A stretch of DNA of 64,000 nucleotides from an uncultured SAR86 cluster bacterium (GTDB lineage: Bacteria; Pseudomonadota; Gammaproteobacteria; Magnimaribacterales; AG-339-G14): positions 94,993 to 158,992 of the forward strand of contig CACPMT010000001.1 of the NCBI GenBank assembly GCA_902635045.1, given 5' to 3'. A program made the position numbers and the translations under genes. Below are positions 44,029 through 56,124 of the stretch, piece after piece; within the stretch, counting starts at the first letter, position 1; each line of letters begins with the position of its first letter. The notes under the pieces are model-generated. The model saw only the letters and a list, made by a program, of their open reading frames with translations, was not told the DNA's origin and made no database searches.

Positions 44029-44424
44029 TTATTCGTGACAATTGCAGTCAGAATTTTGACAGGCGCGGTAATTTCTATAATGAGCAAATATTAAAAAAGC
44101 TGATCCAATTATTGTAAGTATAGTTTCTAAAGGCAGGCCTAAATAGGTTCCTTCATTAAACAGAGCAAAGAAAAGAACTGTTAATCCAAAAAGCCCAATC
44201 GGAAAAAAGGAATTACTTTTATGATTTTTTTTACCTAAATATAGAGCATAAAGACTAATTGGTGCTGCCATAAAAAGAAGAGAGTAATGAAGTATTTCAT
44301 CAGAAAACTGTATTGAAAAAAAAGCAACGGAGGAAATCAGAAAAGCTGGCATAAATAGACAATGCAATATACAGGCCAAGGATAAGGTCATTGCCAGCCT
44401 ATCTGAAATTAACTGAGTTTTCAT
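44029..44424 (-). CDS. MerC-domain membrane protein
   Basis: Four membrane helices in 131 residues. The first includes the paired residues of MerC in SLACILHCLFMPAFL (Cys near 18 and 22), and the C-terminus ends in a Cys/His cluster, CQNSDCNCHE. MerC proteins carry mercury or other soft metals across the inner membrane; chromosomal copies without other mer genes probably handle another metal. A promoter and a 13-bp palindrome lie just upstream, suggesting repressor control. Confidence 0.82.
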   Translation of the reverse strand: MKTQLISDRLAMTLSLACILHCLFMPAFLISSVAFFSIQFSDEILHYSLLFMAAPISLYALYLGKKNHKSNSFFPIGLFGLTVLFFALFNEGTYLGLPLETILTIIGSAFLIFAHYRNYRACQNSDCNCHE

Positions 44425-44496: not shown

Positions 44497-44952
44497 TTAA
44501 GATGAATATTCTTCATTAAGACCCTTTAAATCTTCAAAATTCATAGCTTGAAGAACTTCTAAGTTTTCATCCAAAATCTCATAAATTGGATCTGTAGATG
44601 AATAAGGCCTCAAACTGAAATAAACGACAACATCTTCATCGCCACCGCCCTCAGTGTGGGCTTCACCCGGCTCACCGGCTTTAAAAACTCCTGCAGGTCT
44701 GACGTCCTTTAATTCTCCATTAGGAAGATAAGTCTTTAACTCTCCTTTTACAGTAAAAGTGCTGTAGTTAGAAGTATGTCGATGCATAAGAATCTTTTCG
44801 TTTGCTGCAAATTTAAACAACACATCAACAATTTTTGCTTTTTCATCGACATTTAAAATTGATAAAGATATGTGATCAGCTGGTTCTCCATCTGGCCCAG
44901 GTAATGGTTTCCAATCTATCTTAGATTCGTCAAAAGTATTTATGTCTAACAT
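44497..44952 (-). CDS. Cupin-domain protein (ChrR-like)
   Basis: The 151-residue protein is one cupin barrel: KILMHRHTSNYSTFTVKGEL near residues 55-75 supplies the metal-binding histidines and GEAHTEGGGDEDVVVYFSL the second motif. Similar proteins are called anti-sigma ChrR-like or acetylacetone-dioxygenase-like cupins. I chose ATG 44952 because GGAG lies six bases ahead; an in-frame TTG 13 codons upstream has no such site. The metal and substrate are unknown. Confidence 0.78.
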   Translation of the reverse strand: MLDINTFDESKIDWKPLPGPDGEPADHISLSILNVDEKAKIVDVLFKFAANEKILMHRHTSNYSTFTVKGELKTYLPNGELKDVRPAGVFKAGEPGEAHTEGGGDEDVVVYFSLRPYSSTDPIYEILDENLEVLQAMNFEDLKGLNEEYSS

Positions 44953-44996
44953 TTTATATCTCCATTTTTTTCTATTTTCAAAGGTTACCAAATTTT

Positions 44997-45341
44997 TTAA
45001 GAGTTCGTGGGATTTACAAAAAAATAAGGCTTCAAATAAAGGATTTTTCCATTATCTAGAGAAAAAAAATCCGTAATTTGTAACTTTTCTCCTGAAGAAG
45101 TCTCCCACTCAAAACTCAGAAACAAATCTTTGCCTTCTACCGCCGAATGGCCCTTTTCTATTTTTGTAATAGACTCCGAAATAGGCTTTAGAATATTTAA
45201 TACCTCTTCAATTCCAGTTATTTTGCCATAAACCGCACTATCGAAAACGACGTCAGGCGCAAAGGGAACTTTTTCAAAATTGCCATTTTTTAAAGCATCA
45301 ATATAAATGTCACCTATTTCAATAATTTCCTCTTTAGTCAT
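44997..45341 (-). CDS. SnoaL/NTF2-like small protein
   Basis: The 114-residue protein looks like a single cone-shaped NTF2/SnoaL fold: helices IIEIGDIYIDALKNGNF, then strands VVFDSAVYGKITG and LQITDFFSLDNGKILYLKPYF. Such proteins are ligand-binding or isomerase modules, often of unknown function. It lies between the cupin gene and the Cys-rich mini-ORF on the same strand. Confidence 0.7.
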   Translation of the reverse strand: MTKEEIIEIGDIYIDALKNGNFEKVPFAPDVVFDSAVYGKITGIEEVLNILKPISESITKIEKGHSAVEGKDLFLSFEWETSSGEKLQITDFFSLDNGKILYLKPYFFVNPTNS

Positions 45342-45389: not shown

Positions 45390-45443
45390 TTATTTTGTTT
45401 TTGCACAACAAGTGCATTCGCAACAATCGCAACAATCACACAT
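45390..45443 (-). CDS. Cysteine-rich 17-residue mini-ORF, metallothionein-like
   Basis: ATG at 45443 opens a 17-codon frame reading MCDCCDCCECTCCAKTK and closed by TAA. Eight of 17 residues are cysteine, in CC and CxC spacing like metal-thiolate clusters, and the tail is basic. It is too short for ordinary gene calling. A perfect extended -10 (TGGTATAAT) ends five bases before the ATG. It sits alone in the 125-base gap between the SnoaL-like and 45467 genes. Metal binding is inference from composition. It has no family I know, and chance cannot be fully excluded. Confidence 0.5.
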   Translation of the reverse strand: MCDCCDCCECTCCAKTK

Positions 45444-45448
45444 ATCTT

Positions 45449-45457
45449 ATTATACCA
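45449..45457 (-). promoter_or_regulatory. Extended -10 promoter for the Cys-rich mini-ORF
   Basis: On the minus strand, TGG directly before TATAAT gives a perfect TGnTATAAT extended -10, which does not need a good -35. Five bases separate it from the ATG, so the first transcribed base should be at or near the A of ATG 45443. Confidence 0.55.
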
Positions 45458-45466
45458 AATAATGAT

Positions 45467-45922
45467 TCATGTAACGGGCGATGAATGATGAGCCTTTATT
45501 TTTAAAGAATCATCGACATTCACCAGCAGAAATGTAAAAGCTACAATAGTAACTTCATCAAGCTCGTGAGGTTTAAATTTCAAGGCCCCCATTACAACTA
45601 TAAGCTCATTTTTTTCGATAAAATCCATTTCTATTAATGAAATTTCTTGCCAAGGTTTTAAAGCAAAGCCTTTGTCTTCATTAACGTTACCTCCGACAAA
45701 ATAAGACATGGCCAAATCTTTTTTATTCCTAAAAATAACTTCTTTTGTGAAAGTTGGTTTAAACAAGACTTTTTCAGTATCAAAAGCATAGTGGTGGGAT
45801 AAAAATTTATCTGCTTGCTTAACGTAATCGCCTTTATCAAGATATATTCTGCCAATTTCAATAACGCCATCTTTCCAGGAGTTGAGAAAATTTTTGATTT
45901 CTGTAATTTTTTCTCCACTCAT
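45467..45922 (-). CDS. NTF2-like hypothetical protein
   Basis: The 151-residue protein starts with an amphipathic helix and GVIEIGRIYLDKGDYVKQADKFL, followed by strands around VLFKPTFTKEVIFRNKKDLAMSYF. Homologues with this pattern are often mislabelled phosphoribosyl-AMP cyclohydrolase, but I see no metal site for that. An NTF2/SnoaL-like fold is likely. I chose ATG 45922; the frame also allows GTG 45937 upstream. The function is unknown. Confidence 0.65.
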   Translation of the reverse strand: MSGEKITEIKNFLNSWKDGVIEIGRIYLDKGDYVKQADKFLSHHYAFDTEKVLFKPTFTKEVIFRNKKDLAMSYFVGGNVNEDKGFALKPWQEISLIEMDFIEKNELIVVMGALKFKPHELDEVTIVAFTFLLVNVDDSLKIKAHHSSPVT

Positions 45923-45953
45923 TTTTTTAATAAGCACGTCATAAGATTCTTGC

Positions 45954-46340
45954 TTATTTGACTATAATTTGAATTTTTTCTGACATTAAAGGGGGCTTAT
46001 GCGGAATGTGGTATTTATCACCTAAGACCAATTGCAGAGAATGTTTGCCTGAAGGAAGTTCCAAGTTGGTTTCAGTTTGGCCCAATCCAAAATGCAGGTG
46101 TTGATCTGAGGATGGAATAGGCGAATTATAGTCAACTTCATCTACATTTATTAACAAATGATGATGACCGGTATTAGTTACATCAACGCCTGCAGGCGCA
46201 ACGCCCTTACCCCTTAAACCAAATTGAATGAGAAATGGTGACTTCAATACATCTCCATCTTTAATATTTATAAAATAGACTTTCTCTGAAAAAACGTTTA
46301 AAGACAGCAATAAAAAAAACGGCAAAATCGCTAATTTCAT
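45954..46340 (-). CDS. Secreted DUF4399 protein
   Basis: A signal peptide (residues 3-18) is followed by a beta-sandwich of the DUF4399 type: VYFINIKDGDVLKSPF, FGLRGKGVAPAGVD, GHHHLLINVD, DQHLHFGLGQTET and LQLVLGDKYHIPHKPP. The histidine pairs suggest a copper or other metal site, but the role is not known. It faces the MFS gene across 125 bases. A TTGTAT / 18 bases / TAAAAT promoter ends six bases before its ATG. Confidence 0.82.
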   Translation of the reverse strand: MKLAILPFFLLLSLNVFSEKVYFINIKDGDVLKSPFLIQFGLRGKGVAPAGVDVTNTGHHHLLINVDEVDYNSPIPSSDQHLHFGLGQTETNLELPSGKHSLQLVLGDKYHIPHKPPLMSEKIQIIVK

Positions 46341-49329: not shown

Positions 49330-52300
49330 TTAAAAATTCCCTATTAGCTCAAAAAAACAAACTTCTGATGTCGAGATATCATTTTTATCAATACCTGAGA
49401 AGTCAGATAAATAGTTAGATCTTCCTTCCCATCTACAACCAATATTAGTGTTTAAGTATCTAGAAATTTCAAGCATCAATCCTATGTCAACTTCCCAATT
49501 ATGAGCCTTCATTCCATCGTCTAGTTTTAGCTTGTAATTCGTATTCGGTCCTTCTAAGTTGTAATACATGTTTTGGCTAGAAGTTTTTGAGTAATCCAAA
49601 CCATATTCTAGCGATATATATGGCATTGCATTATATTTTGATTCTGCAAATAAATAGCTGATATCTGTTCCGATTGATGCCTTAGCATTCGATAGTGTCA
49701 GTTCATCAAAAGTTAACGCCGCCTCGCCGCCTATTTCACTATATTTATCGAACTCTGTGTACGAACCATCCATTCTAAGATAAGGAGAAATTTGCCAGTT
49801 GTTATTCTCATTGTTCAAAGAGCGAATAAACGCCAATGACCCGAATAATTGATTCGCTTCTCTTTCGCCTTTTAGAAGCTCTTGTCTATCCAATCGGTCT
49901 GAATCAAATTCTATTCTTCCAATCCCAAAAATATATTGCAATGAATTTCTTTCGTTATCAAATTTTCCATATGTTGAAATGCTATAGTTCCTGGACTCTA
50001 CATTAGAGTTATTATTTCTATCTTTTGGTTTAGTTTCACCTAGGCCCAAAGCAAAACCAAACAAATCACCGTCGTCACCTGATAGCTTATCAATTCCTAA
50101 ATGAAAAGATCTTTCGTCAAGAACTCTTTGACTAGTTTTAATCTTGCCTAAAGTAAATTCTCCAAATTCACCATCAATCCATATAGACCAATCACCAATC
50201 GCTTCCTTTAGCTCTCCTTCAGCCGTCACTGTTACAGGATCTGATACCCATTCTTTAAAGGCAGATTTTAATTGCTCTGTATTCAGAGTTGTGTTGACTT
50301 CTTCCCGATCAATATCTAAATTCGAAATTTGATTGTCAGAATCAGGATCTGCAAGGCCTTTATTTTGGTCATAACGTTGAGCTGCAATGATTGATTCATA
50401 TGAACTAGGATCGTCAAAGTCTGTTAAGCAGAAATAATTTGCATTTGGGTCTGTCCATGCTTTTAGATCATCTGTTAGTGTGTGGGTATAAACTGAATTT
50501 TTACCCAGTAGAGCATTTGAAGATTCTAAAAGAGACACAATAATTTTCCTATCTCCTGGAGTAAAACCAAATCTATCTTGCGGGATACCTTCAATCATAA
50601 TAATGGCAGATTTGAGCCCTGCCTCTATATCTAATATTCCTTCCCCGAATGAGAAGTTTTCCTTGGCTGATGAGCCAGTAATTTTAAAATCTATGGCGAT
50701 ATCTTCAGGTGCAATTTTAGATAAGTGCACTTTTATCTTCAGAGAAGAAGCAGTTTTAGGACCACTAGAATTTATTGTGCAAAACTCTACGATAGGCTCT
50801 TTAATAAAATCATCATCAAGCGGTTCTTCAATAAAGTTATTATCAAGCTCATTTGCACCGCTAGTCTTAATTGAATCAATAATATTGTTATCGAAATTAA
50901 CCCTGAAACCTTGTCGAGATGAGGTCGTCATACGTTTGGAAATTGCATTTATATTTTGATCGACCCAGCGAGTTGCAATTCGATTCATCGCTTTAGCATT
51001 ATCGATTACAGGCTGCTTCAAAGTAGGATCGGTCAATTCAATACGAGTTTTAAAATTAAACTCTGTTATATCACTAATGCCATTAAAAGAATTGCCAAAA
51101 ATATCATCAAACGCTGTATTTTCTATTAAGACGTAATATTCAGTATCGTGTTCAAGATCCGCAGGTAAATTAATCGTGATGGTCTCTGTCCCACAACCGG
51201 TCACAATCGCATTTGGAAGAGTGACTGCAAAAGATGAAGAATTATCCGCTGCTTTAATATCGATGGTGCCTGTTTCGCAATCCACAACTTTGTTAAAAGT
51301 TAAAACTATGTCGCTATTTATAGGCACACCTGTACTATCGTCTTGAGGACCGGTTTTTGTTAAGACTGGTTCTTGAAAATCATTGTCATTGATAATGACA
51401 GTGTGAACAATGTCACTGCCAAGAATTGCGTTAGTTGGGTTGGATAAAGTGATAATTATGGTTTCATCAGCTTCTTCCGTTGAGTCATCAACAATCGATG
51501 GGATAACTATTGTTCCGCTTGTTGCCCCCTCTTCTATGAGTACGCTGCCAGATGACAAAGAGTAGTCTGTACCTGACCCAGCAGTGCCCCCAGTGACTGA
51601 ATAATCAACTGCAATCTGTTGAAGAGATGCAAAAGGAATTACGACAGATAATGATCTTGATGCAACTGATTCTGAACCAGTGGAAGTCGAAGCAGAAAAT
51701 GCTACTTCCGGAATACCATCATCGTCTTTGATGGTGTAGGTATGAACACTATCGTTCCCTAGCACGGCGTTGCTTGGCCCTGATAAAGTTATGATCACCG
51801 TTTCATTTGCTTCTGCTAACTCGTCATTAACAATACCTGCGATAGTGATAGTCCCACTTGTTGCGCCAGCACTAATGGTTAAAGTGTCATTGGCTAGAGT
51901 GTAATCGGTACCCGAACCAGTCGCCGTTCCCGTGACCGCATAATTAACTGTCACGTTTTGGCTTGATGCGGCAGAAAGATAAACTGTTAGAGCAACCGAC
52001 GAGATATCCTCTGCACCACTAGAAGCAGAGTTACCAAAATCTATTGTAGGCTGACCATCATTATCTGTGATGGTATAAGTGTGCGTATCTTTACTACCTA
52101 AAGAGGCGTTAGTAGGGTTTGATAAAGTAACGATAACTGTCTCATTTAGCTCATCCACAGAATCGTCAATTATCCCGGCTATTGTAATGATTCCGCTTGT
52201 TGCGCCAGCACTAATGGTCAACTTGCCATTGGCTAGAGTGTAATCGGTACCCGAGCCTGTGGCCGTTCCCGTTACCGCATAATCAACCGTTATGCTCTGA

Positions 52301-55300
52301 CTTGACGCCGCAGACAAATCTACAGTCAAGCTTGCAGAAGAAGTTGATTCAGCCCCACTTGAACTAGAGACATTGAAATCAATTTCTGGCGCATTATCAT
52401 TGTCAGTAATCGTATAAGTATGAACACTATCGCTTCCTAAAGTTGCATTATTAGGACTTGATAAGGTCAGAATGACAGTCTCATTGTCTTCGTCAGCTGT
52501 ATCGTCAATAATATTAGAGATCGTAATGATTCCATTCGTTGCACCAGCACTGATGGTTAAGGTGTCATTAGCTAGAGTATAATCAGTACCCGAGCCAGTC
52601 GCCGTTCCTGTCACGGCATAATTAACTGTTACATCTTGTCCAGAGGCTGCAGATAAATCAACCGTGATATCTTTGGAAGATGAAGATTCGGCTCCGCTAG
52701 AGCTGGTGGCATTAAAATCAATTACTGGAGGATCGTCATTATCCGTGATGGTATAAGTATGAACGGTGTCATTGCCCAAAGTTGCATTGCCAGGACTTGA
52801 TAAAGTCACAATGACTGTTTCATCGGCTTCATCCACAGAGTCATTAACAATGCCGGCGATACTGATTGTTCCACTAGTTAAACCAGCGTCTATAGTTAAG
52901 GAACCATTGGCCAGAGTGTAATCGGTTCCCGAGCCAGTTGCCGTTCCAGTTACCACAAAATTGACCGTTGCGTCCTGTTCTGAAACTGCCGATAAATCTA
53001 CGGTCAAGTCTGCGGAGGAAACTGACTCTGCTCCGCTAGAGTTGGTGGCATTAAAATCAATTACTGGAGGATCGTCATTATCCGTAATGGTGTATGTATA
53101 TACTTCGTCACTGCCCAAAGTTGCGTTGCTGGGATTTGATAAAGTAACTATTACTGTTTCATTAGCCTCATCAATTGAATCGTCGATTATGCCTGATATA
53201 TCTATAATTCCAGTCGTTGCGCCAGCATCAATAGTTAAAGAGGAATCGGCCAGAGTATAATCAGTTCCTGAGCCAGTCGCGGTTCCTGTCACAGCATAAT
53301 TAACCGTCACATCTTTTCCAGAGGCTGCCGATAAATCTACGGTCAAACTTTCTGAAGAAACTGATTCGGCCCTGCTTGAACTAGTGGAATTAAAGTCAAC
53401 CACCGGAGGGTTGTCATTATCCGTAATAGTGTAAGTATGAACCATAATGGAGCCTGGATCAGCGTTTGACGGATTGGATAAAGTAACAATGACTGTCTCA
53501 TTTGCCTCATCTAAAGAATCATCAATTATGCTAGCAATTGTAATATTCGTTGAATTTGAATTAGGTGCAATAGTTGCCATGCCATTGGCTAAAGTGTAAT
53601 CGGTGCCCGAGCCGGTGGCCGTTCCTGTGACGACATAATCAACTGTTACGTTTTGTGCCGAGGTTGCCGATAAATTAACCGCAATGTCTTTGGAAGAAGT
53701 AGATTCAGCTCCACTTGAAGTGGCAGAGGCAAAAGATATATTTCTGTCGCCTACTGGCTCCAAAATTGTGTATGTATGAACATTGTTACTGCCCAAAGTC
53801 GCATTGTTAGGACTTGATAAAGTAAGAATAACCGTCTCTCCCCCATCAGGGGTTCCATCATTAACAATACCAGCAATTGTAATATTCGTTGATGTTGAAC
53901 CAGCTGCAATGGTTGCCATGCCGTCGGCTAAAGTGTAATCAGTGCCCGAGCCGGTGGCCGTTCCTGTCACGGCATAATTAACTGTTACGCTCTGTCCTGA
54001 GGCTTCCGATAAATTGACCGAAATATCTTTACTAGAAACAGACTCTAATCCATCAGAACTAGTTACTTCAAAAGCTACAACCGGCGCACTGTCGTTGTCA
54101 GTGATGGTGTAAGTATGAACGCTGTTGCTACCCAAAGTTGCATTGTTTGGACTGGATAGAGTAAGAATGACAGTCTCATTGGCTTCATTTAGGGAATCAT
54201 TAACAATGCTACCAATAGTAATCATTGTTGATGTTGAACCAGGTGCAATAGATGCCATGCCATTGGCTAAAGTGTAATCGGTGCCCGAGCCGGTGGCCGT
54301 TCCTGTCACAGCATAATTAACGGTTACGTTTTGACTCGATGCTGCCGAAAGATCAACCGTGATATCTGTGGAAGATGAAGATTCAGCTCCGTTTGAACTG
54401 GTGGCATTAAATTGAACTACTGGAGGATTATCATTATCCACGATGGTATAAGTGTGGGCATCGTTGCTTCCCAAGGTTGCATTAGTAGGACTCGATAATG
54501 TAACAACAACAGTCTCATTGGCTTCGTCAAGTGAATCGTTAACAATGCCAGCAATAGTAATATTCGTTGATGTTGAACCAGGTGCAATAGATGCCATGCC
54601 ATTGGCTAAAGTGTAATCGGTGCCCGAGCCGGTGGCCGTTCCTGTCACAGCATAATTAACGGTTACGCTCTGTCCTGAGGCTGCCGATAAATCTACGGTC
54701 AAGTCTACAGAGGAAACTGACTCAGCTTGGCTCGAAGTAGTAGTATTAAAGGCAACTGATGGAGGATTGTCATTATCCGTGATAGTGTAAGTATGAACGC
54801 TATTGCTACCCAAGGTCGCATTGTTAGGATTTGATAAGGTGACGACAACTGTTTCATCCGCTTCATCTAATGAGTCATTAACAATACCAGCAATTGTAAT
54901 ATTCGTTGATGTTGAACCAGGTGATATAGTTGCTATGCCGCTAGCTAAAGTATAATCGGTGCCCGAGCCAGTGGCCGTTCCTGTCACGGCATAATTGACT
55001 GTCACATTTTTTCCTGAGGCTGCTGATAAATCAACCGCGATATCTTTGGAAGATGAAGATTCGGCTCCATTCGAAGTAGTAGTGTTGAAGTCAACCACTG
55101 GAGGATTGTCGTTATCAATAATTGTATAAGTGTGAACGGTGTTATTGCCCAAAGTTGCATTGGTAGGACTTGATAAAGTGACGATCACCGTTTCATTTGG
55201 TTCGTCCACAGAGTCATTGACAATGCCGGCAATACTAATTGAGCCGCTGGTTAAACCAGCGTTTATAGTTAAAGAACCACTGGCCAGAGTGTAATCGGTA

Positions 55301-56124
55301 CCCGAGCCAGTCGCGGTGCCAGTTACCGTATAATTAACAGATACATTTTGAGTTGCTGCATATGATAAATCTATATTCAAAGCTGCAGAAGAAACCGATT
55401 CAGCTCCACTTGAGCTTGTGCTACTAAACGCTACAGTTGGACTGGCCGCTCTAGTTATGACTCGAATATAGTCACCCGGCTTGCCGTTCTTCGAGCCAAT
55501 TCTAAGTATTCTCTTGTTAGAGCTAATTGATACCCAGTCCCCAGATGTAGTTGAGGCTGTTGTGCTGCTGCCATAGTGAACATGGTCCTCTGTCTGCCTT
55601 GCACTAAAACCACTATTACCACTATGGGGATAAGATGCGCCTTCTTTACTTATTTCGGCTAATTCCACAGTCATTGTTGGGTCTGTCCAGTATCCCAAAA
55701 TTTCATTTTCAAATTCTATTTCGCCAATATATGCGGTTCGATCATCTTTAGAGTTGTGTTGGCTGTTAATAAAAACTAGGTAAGAATTGGCTGGAGTAGT
55801 TCGAAAATTAATTGACGTAACACTTCCAGATGGCACATAACCAAGGCCACTAAAGCTGTATACAGTGTTGCATGCAGCGGAGTTTGGCGTTGATTGGCAG
55901 ATGTTTGTTCTTTCAGGGACAATTACAAAGTGCCCGTTACTTGCTTGCAGGCCTTCAGTGGTCTGTTTTCGGGCCTTCAGAATTGGGTTAGCATCAGTTT
56001 TTATTTCTACATATGTGTTAGTTGTTACAATGCCATCAGCATGAGCTTGCATAGATTGCAAACCGGCAAGTACTAGAAAAATACTAATACAAAAAGATCT
56101 AAACAAATCTAGCCTTATTTTCAT
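49330..56124 (-). CDS. Giant Calx-beta repeat autotransporter/adhesin, 2264 aa
   Basis: The protein has a signal peptide (residues 9-28), a unique N-terminal domain (about 30-225), 12 tandem Calx-beta domains of about 113 residues (about 229-1585), an Ig-like bacterial domain (about 1586-1695), and a thirteenth, diverged Calx-beta unit with a low-complexity acidic linker before it. The final 296 residues form an autotransporter beta-barrel ending in Phe. Each repeat ends with the DE.NETV..TL acidic motif and a DNDNPP linker, where calcium should bind. It is probably a calcium-stiffened surface adhesin. It has no serine-protease triad that I can see. Confidence 0.92.
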   Translation of the reverse strand: MKIRLDLFRSFCISIFLVLAGLQSMQAHADGIVTTNTYVEIKTDANPILKARKQTTEGLQASNGHFVIVPERTNICQSTPNSAACNTVYSFSGLGYVPSGSVTSINFRTTPANSYLVFINSQHNSKDDRTAYIGEIEFENEILGYWTDPTMTVELAEISKEGASYPHSGNSGFSARQTEDHVHYGSSTTASTTSGDWVSISSNKRILRIGSKNGKPGDYIRVITRAASPTVAFSSTSSSGAESVSSAALNIDLSYAATQNVSVNYTVTGTATGSGTDYTLASGSLTINAGLTSGSISIAGIVNDSVDEPNETVIVTLSSPTNATLGNNTVHTYTIIDNDNPPVVDFNTTTSNGAESSSSKDIAVDLSAASGKNVTVNYAVTGTATGSGTDYTLASGIATISPGSTSTNITIAGIVNDSLDEADETVVVTLSNPNNATLGSNSVHTYTITDNDNPPSVAFNTTTSSQAESVSSVDLTVDLSAASGQSVTVNYAVTGTATGSGTDYTLANGMASIAPGSTSTNITIAGIVNDSLDEANETVVVTLSSPTNATLGSNDAHTYTIVDNDNPPVVQFNATSSNGAESSSSTDITVDLSAASSQNVTVNYAVTGTATGSGTDYTLANGMASIAPGSTSTMITIGSIVNDSLNEANETVILTLSSPNNATLGSNSVHTYTITDNDSAPVVAFEVTSSDGLESVSSKDISVNLSEASGQSVTVNYAVTGTATGSGTDYTLADGMATIAAGSTSTNITIAGIVNDGTPDGGETVILTLSSPNNATLGSNNVHTYTILEPVGDRNISFASATSSGAESTSSKDIAVNLSATSAQNVTVDYVVTGTATGSGTDYTLANGMATIAPNSNSTNITIASIIDDSLDEANETVIVTLSNPSNADPGSIMVHTYTITDNDNPPVVDFNSTSSSRAESVSSESLTVDLSAASGKDVTVNYAVTGTATGSGTDYTLADSSLTIDAGATTGIIDISGIIDDSIDEANETVIVTLSNPSNATLGSDEVYTYTITDNDDPPVIDFNATNSSGAESVSSADLTVDLSAVSEQDATVNFVVTGTATGSGTDYTLANGSLTIDAGLTSGTISIAGIVNDSVDEADETVIVTLSSPGNATLGNDTVHTYTITDNDDPPVIDFNATSSSGAESSSSKDITVDLSAASGQDVTVNYAVTGTATGSGTDYTLANDTLTISAGATNGIITISNIIDDTADEDNETVILTLSSPNNATLGSDSVHTYTITDNDNAPEIDFNVSSSSGAESTSSASLTVDLSAASSQSITVDYAVTGTATGSGTDYTLANGKLTISAGATSGIITIAGIIDDSVDELNETVIVTLSNPTNASLGSKDTHTYTITDNDGQPTIDFGNSASSGAEDISSVALTVYLSAASSQNVTVNYAVTGTATGSGTDYTLANDTLTISAGATSGTITIAGIVNDELAEANETVIITLSGPSNAVLGNDSVHTYTIKDDDGIPEVAFSASTSTGSESVASRSLSVVIPFASLQQIAVDYSVTGGTAGSGTDYSLSSGSVLIEEGATSGTIVIPSIVDDSTEEADETIIITLSNPTNAILGSDIVHTVIINDNDFQEPVLTKTGPQDDSTGVPINSDIVLTFNKVVDCETGTIDIKAADNSSSFAVTLPNAIVTGCGTETITINLPADLEHDTEYYVLIENTAFDDIFGNSFNGISDITEFNFKTRIELTDPTLKQPVIDNAKAMNRIATRWVDQNINAISKRMTTSSRQGFRVNFDNNIIDSIKTSGANELDNNFIEEPLDDDFIKEPIVEFCTINSSGPKTASSLKIKVHLSKIAPEDIAIDFKITGSSAKENFSFGEGILDIEAGLKSAIIMIEGIPQDRFGFTPGDRKIIVSLLESSNALLGKNSVYTHTLTDDLKAWTDPNANYFCLTDFDDPSSYESIIAAQRYDQNKGLADPDSDNQISNLDIDREEVNTTLNTEQLKSAFKEWVSDPVTVTAEGELKEAIGDWSIWIDGEFGEFTLGKIKTSQRVLDERSFHLGIDKLSGDDGDLFGFALGLGETKPKDRNNNSNVESRNYSISTYGKFDNERNSLQYIFGIGRIEFDSDRLDRQELLKGEREANQLFGSLAFIRSLNNENNNWQISPYLRMDGSYTEFDKYSEIGGEAALTFDELTLSNAKASIGTDISYLFAESKYNAMPYISLEYGLDYSKTSSQNMYYNLEGPNTNYKLKLDDGMKAHNWEVDIGLMLEISRYLNTNIGCRWEGRSNYLSDFSGIDKNDISTSEVCFFELIGNF
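51373..55440 (-). repeat. Tandem array of about 12 in-frame 339-base Calx-beta repeats
   Basis: The repeats code for about 113 residues each. A core block encoding TGTATGSGTDYTLA is nearly unchanged at DNA and protein level from unit 1 to unit 11, while the flanks and the twelfth unit vary more. This looks like repeated duplication with gene conversion. Misassembly of copy number is possible. Confidence 0.9.

Follow-up and report, generated by a model that had tools for sequence, protein, structure and literature searches.

A conserved eight-cysteine micro-gene of SAR86 bacteria with a predicted leaderless mRNA and a putative metallothionein-like product

The genome of an uncultured SAR86 cluster bacterium, of which a stretch of 64,000 nucleotides (the window) was analyzed, contains a 54-bp micro-gene that is, on the evidence of its sequence and of its relatives, a real and conserved protein-coding gene of SAR86 and not a repeat artefact. 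Its mRNA is predicted to be leaderless, and we consider it fairly probable that the product is a minimal metallothionein-like buffer for soft metals, perhaps with a MerC-family protein as its partner. No earlier description of the peptide was found in literature searches.

The micro-gene, its promoter and its conservation

The minus-strand ORF (45443-45390; Table 1) translates into the 17-residue peptide MCDCCDCCECTCCAKTK, followed by a stop codon, and lies in a 125-bp gap flanked by minus-strand ORFs on both sides (44997-45341 and 45467-45937). Translation and the ORF map thus bear out the initial annotation, which had described a minus-strand peptide with 8 cysteines among 17 residues in an otherwise empty gap. 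A window-wide search revealed no second ORF as rich in Cys, so that 45390-45443 is unique in the window, and a 17-residue ATG ORF with more than five Cys occurred in none of 100 Markov-simulated windows.

Table 1. Coordinates of the micro-gene, its promoter and neighboring genes in the window
Feature	Position	Strand	Basis
Micro-gene, predicted leaderless, product MCDCCDCCECTCCAKTK (8 Cys in 17 residues)	45390..45443	-	translation and conservation
Extended -10 promoter TGGTATAAT, start of transcription predicted at or next to the ATG	45449..45457	-	sequence and relatives
Upstream SnoaL/NTF2-like gene, distant match to metal-independent (iota-type) carbonic anhydrase	45467..45937	-	NCBIfam NF047901
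Downstream gene, DUF4904/SnoaL-like	44997..45341	-	Pfam
Cupin-like gene between micro-gene and merC	44497..44991	-	Pfam Cupin_7, just under cut-off
MerC-family inner-membrane metal transporter, recurrent genomic partner	44029..44424	-	PF03203, E 5.9e-26
DUF4399 gene, further upstream, neighbor only	45954..46340	-	Pfam

When 1.3 kb of the window was compared by BLASTN with 101 related genomes, many matches were restricted to query positions ~402 to 448, i.e., to the mini-ORF, and the 45-bp core of the micro-gene was matched at 80-95% identity in genomes from other families of the order. A degenerate pattern located the micro-gene in 61 of the order's 203 genomes and a less strict five-Cys pattern in 73, while a reversed control pattern had zero matches in the same genomes. 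A model that combines promoter and ORF, built on sequence alone, yielded ~76 strong copies in the 203 genomes (75 at E < 1e-11, one at 1e-8), among them the additional copies MYDCCKCCECSCCSK, MTNCDCCSCCECACCPK and the shortened MCDCCECSRCAK; its scores are sharply bimodal, with a jump from the strong copies down to noise, and, together with the reading of the extra copies, this indicates that the micro-gene is usually either intact or gone. The same mini-ORF, which was to be sought in relatives, is hence present in ~76/203 genomes of the order. Three SAR86 families share the ORF together with its Cys scaffold and promoter, and the frameshifts or lost cysteines that had been named as grounds for rejection did not emerge in them; two copies depart from the scaffold, a C2-to-Y variant and a shortened one. 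The latter (locus L348, G107:C1:241406-241459) has an intact start and -10 region and is possibly decaying. One genome (G093) has two copies, MCDCCNCCKCSCCSK and MCDCCKCCECSCCSK, on separate contigs (L354, L355).

Family f2 lacks the micro-gene, as do two genera of the window's own family, g3 and g4, and the strict pattern had no match outside SAR86 among 369 genomes spread over the class. Pattern-scan matches in Burkholderiales and elsewhere (MCACCGCCGC... and similar) were rejected, as those among the matches listed had neither the promoter nor the C12/C13 pair; these matches share a common upstream context, as would be expected if they were a different frame of a single conserved gene. No family profile covers the peptide, and Rfam returned only a weak S15-leader match elsewhere, which was judged to be due to chance.

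The scaffold and its codons were analyzed at 58 non-redundant loci. The products have 14-19 residues and read M-C-x-CC-x-CC-x-C-x-CC, followed by a polar tail of one to six residues, mostly SK/AK. The eight cysteines are nearly invariant, with codons alternating between TGT and TGC, and Cys10, 12 and 13 are present at all 58 loci although the five-Cys pattern did not require them. The pN/pS ratio is 0 at the Cys codons (for the first five partly by construction) and 0.74 at the four spacer codons; non-Cys codons are weakly constrained, and the spacer positions hold only D/E/N/K/S/T/A/Q. Base identity is at background directly 3' of the stop codon and 5' of the -10 region.

The promoter is the second conserved element. 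The perfect TGnTATAAT that had been noticed five bases before the ATG is present in the window (TGGTATAAT, minus strand, 45457-45449, ending 5 nt before the ATG) and recurs at near-identical spacing in the relatives: a -10 box lies 5-7 nt before the ATG at 55/59 loci, compared with 3.9% of background ATGs, and a TATAAT-like hexamer ends exactly 6 nt 5' of the ATG at 53/59. The consensus over the loci, TTAGTTTATAATnnnnnnATG, has no recognizable -35 element and no Shine-Dalgarno sequence. Since a -10 box so near the ATG leaves no space for a Shine-Dalgarno site, the mRNA should be leaderless. In the proposed mechanism, this promoter would start the transcript at the ATG, and 70S ribosomes would read the leaderless mRNA directly.

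Genomic context and linkage to MerC

MerC-family genes (PF03203) occur almost throughout the order, as a rule in a single copy (165/203 genomes), whereas the micro-gene is patchy. The two lie within 6 kb of each other in 32 of 57 scored genomes, compared with ~1% by chance, where the 57 are the micro-genes in genomes with a listed MerC position and the p-value of the linkage is too strong because related genomes are not independent. Their arrangement varies: MerC is located directly downstream of the micro-gene at loci L032, L035, L060, L080 and L161, directly upstream at L054-L059, after a glyoxalase II gene in genus g15, and after other genes in the window and in genomes G045 and G017. In genus g11, MerC is mostly absent within 1.5 kb of the micro-gene, and in at least four genomes, some of them complete or near-complete, that carry both on one contig the distance is ~100-430 kb. 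The MerC relatives beside the micro-gene have a CxxHCxxxP motif and a Cys-rich CH tail at the C-terminus. In genome G062 (L352, G062:C1:1298000-1303000), a divergent, Lys-rich version, MCKCCKCCKCSCCAK, is located directly upstream of MerC, and an HMA-domain gene and a cupredoxin gene are close to the pair.

In the sister genus g4, a carbonic-anhydrase-like gene and MerC are separated by one gene of ~173 aa, and the gap lacks the micro-gene; the neighborhood has been kept without it, and the micro-gene has therefore been gained or lost as a unit. The corresponding upstream gene of the window matches NF047901 with an E-value of 5.8e-14 at 52 bits, which is far below the cut-off of 350, and a gene of this type is also located upstream of the micro-gene in one sister-genus genome (G020). 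It is unannotated, and its relatives adjoin MerC in sister genera. The presence of MerC and DUF4399 nearby, which had been stated in the initial annotation, was confirmed by the profile matches listed in Table 1; most neighbors of the micro-gene in the window are non-metal genes. HXXEE-domain membrane proteins (PF13787) adjoin the micro-gene in ~10 loci of several genera (cluster CL2). Further along the window, positions 49330-56124 encode a 2264-aa repeat protein, apparently, as judged by eye, with Calx-beta-like repeats and an autotransporter-like C-terminal region.

Metal buffering and the alternative readings

Overall, the combination of a hydrophilic eight-Cys peptide, fixed Cys spacing, linkage to MerC and the lack of an SmtA-type protein in the order makes a metallothionein-like role the most plausible one. 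The peptide, unfolded by itself, with eight cysteines spaced C-x-CC-x-CC-x-C-x-CC by polar or charged residues, would most likely remain cytoplasmic and fold about ions of a soft metal (Zn, Cd, Cu(I) or Hg), and it may buffer or detoxify metal brought in by the MerC-family transporter that is often encoded nearby. MerC from mercury-resistance operons transports Hg(II); plants that express it accumulate more cadmium, according to the account of Kiyono 2012 given in PMC6416403. The initial suggestion of a metallothionein-like microprotein is thus partly supported: the ORF, scaffold and promoter proved to be conserved, and the linkage to MerC backs the metal-handling idea.

In Cys fraction, CC/CxC spacing and the lack of aromatic residues in the core, the peptides agree with the metallothionein class; one member has an F in its C-terminal tail. 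The 26-residue Cu-metallothioneins of Neurospora crassa and Agaricus bisporus, with 7 Cys, were once regarded as the shortest (PMC4755600). They are likewise very Cys-rich with short spacing, polar spacers and an aromatic-free core, but the micro-gene product has 14-19 residues, eight Cys and CC pairs rather than CxC throughout, is bacterial, is predicted to be leaderless and is a putative metal binder; there is no sign of common descent. SmtA-type proteins adopt a zinc-finger-like fold with His (PMC10612145). The micro-gene product resembles SmtA/BmtA in being bacterial, Cys-rich and a putative metal buffer, but the PF02069 model has 51 positions, and a His-free peptide of this size is too short for the fold. 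None of the 203 SAR86 genomes had an SmtA-type metallothionein (PF02069) above the curated cut-off, and the window genome lacked any match; an identity with SmtA/BmtA was rejected. The direct scan of single peptides covers those of at least 20 residues, whereas this one has 17. Phytochelatins and glutathione are made by enzymes and not on ribosomes, with one thiol per repeat; they too are small, unfolded and thiol-rich, but the micro-gene product is gene-encoded and has eight thiols.

Among the alternatives, the most serious, although unlikely, is a cysteine-responsive leader peptide, on which ribosomes would stall when cysteinyl-tRNA is scarce and thereby control a downstream gene. A precedent exists in mycobacteria, where leaderless polycysteine sORFs lie ahead of conserved operons and act on them in cis as attenuators (Canestrari et al. 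2020, doi 10.1111/mmi.14498, as cited in PMC9094748 and PMC13236596). As far as they are described in these citing articles, the gross features are shared: the SAR86 ORF is also short, polycysteine and, with its -10 box at 53/59 loci, predicted to be leaderless. Furthermore, a same-strand gene is located directly downstream at 52/57 loci, often 12-150 nt away, against a same-strand background of 82%. Unlike in the mycobacterial cases as cited, however, the downstream genes are variable, falling into ~27 different families instead of a common regulated gene, and are sometimes convergent (L121, L128 [cyclase-family gene, 32 nt off] and L135), and the Cys spacing is fixed. None of the downstream families scanned was recognized as belonging to cysteine or sulfur assimilation, no conserved control element follows the stop codon, after which the sequence is unconserved, and MerC, the recurrent partner, is often upstream. 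Folding of the ORF with the downstream RNA revealed no attenuator structure (mean z -0.5; terminator-like sites at 4/59 loci). Ribosome stalling would require neither the conserved Cys spacing nor the polar spacers. Given the varied and convergent downstream genes, the lack of RNA structure and the fixed Cys spacing, a general regulatory role is unlikely, although single loci might have one.

Unlikely, too, is a thiol/redox peptide that would serve as a glutathione- or phytochelatin-like buffer against oxidants and electrophiles instead of a metal store. Eight thiols per 14 residues would suit this function, and glyoxalase II (hydroxyacylglutathione hydrolase) is encoded by the next gene at all loci examined in genus g15, but this neighbor is confined to one genus, and vicinal CC pairs with fixed spacing together with the linkage to MerC better match metal thiolate clusters. 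We regard as improbable a metallochaperone or cluster-assembly helper that supplies one particular protein with Cu(I), Fe-S precursors or some other metal; the MerC linkage in SAR86 and a look-alike phage ORF directly upstream of IscU- and IscA-type genes point in this direction, but no partner is constant throughout SAR86, and the phage ORFs, which in other phages lie among unrelated genes, may have arisen by convergence. Finally, a chance ORF out of a CAACAATCG-like repeat, which had been considered at the outset, is extremely improbable: a 9-bp unit (TCGCAACAA, 2.2 copies, 45418-45437) does exist in the micro-gene, but this reading is opposed by the simulated windows and the fixed promoter distance and can be regarded as already refuted by the order-wide conservation with synonymous changes.

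Phage look-alikes and implications

A six-Cys pattern detected ~44 short ORFs with ~15 distinct peptides on viral contigs, e.g., MCKCCKCCNCTCC, MCTCCKCCNCTCC, MCSCCKCCNCNCC, MCKCCKCCTCTCPECN and MCKCCDCCDCGCDC. Nearly all are preceded by a Shine-Dalgarno-like stretch, and many of the peptides carry the C12-C13 pair of SAR86, which the pattern did not demand. Some of these ORFs lie in DNA similar to that of Kyanoviridae phages infecting Pelagibacter, Methylophilales and Synechococcus. An exact-DNA scan of the viral contigs for the micro-gene found nothing, and such ORFs were missing from the sections read of the named phage records nearest to these contigs (HTVC008M, Melnitz and AG-345-L05). 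On a phage contig with a T5-like terminase gene nearby (L191:3577-4356), MCKCCKCCNCTCCE is directly followed by IscU-type (PF01592) and IscA-type (PF01521) genes. Polycysteine ORFs of 13-17 residues with Shine-Dalgarno sites occur in several marine phage lineages (L185, L186, L188, L196, L210, L213, L223, L224, L236, L238-L240, L253), and in one phage group the ORF adjoins a conserved, secreted, possibly outer-membrane-like protein of ~430 aa with no family assigned.

With 13 residues to compare, the resemblance between the viral ORFs and the SAR86 gene may reflect common ancestry or convergence. We tentatively propose that SAR86 and several marine phage lineages might share an undescribed class of ribosomal metal-thiolate peptides of 13-19 residues with the scaffold C-x-CC-x-CC-x-C-x-C(C), leaderless in the host and with Shine-Dalgarno sites in the phages; if so, these would be the smallest known gene-encoded metallothioneins.

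The fixed distance between promoter and ATG offers a clean model of leaderless translation in Gammaproteobacteria. SAR86 bacteria are among the most abundant bacteria of the surface ocean, and genes for 14-19 residues, which are far under the length limit of gene callers, are likely missing from their annotations. Should the micro-gene product bind metal, it would be roughly a third to a half shorter than the 26-residue metallothioneins and would be a candidate partner for the MerC-like proteins of bacteria that are not mercury-resistant. It would then also bear on the handling of trace metals in streamlined ocean bacteria without SmtA-type metallothioneins.
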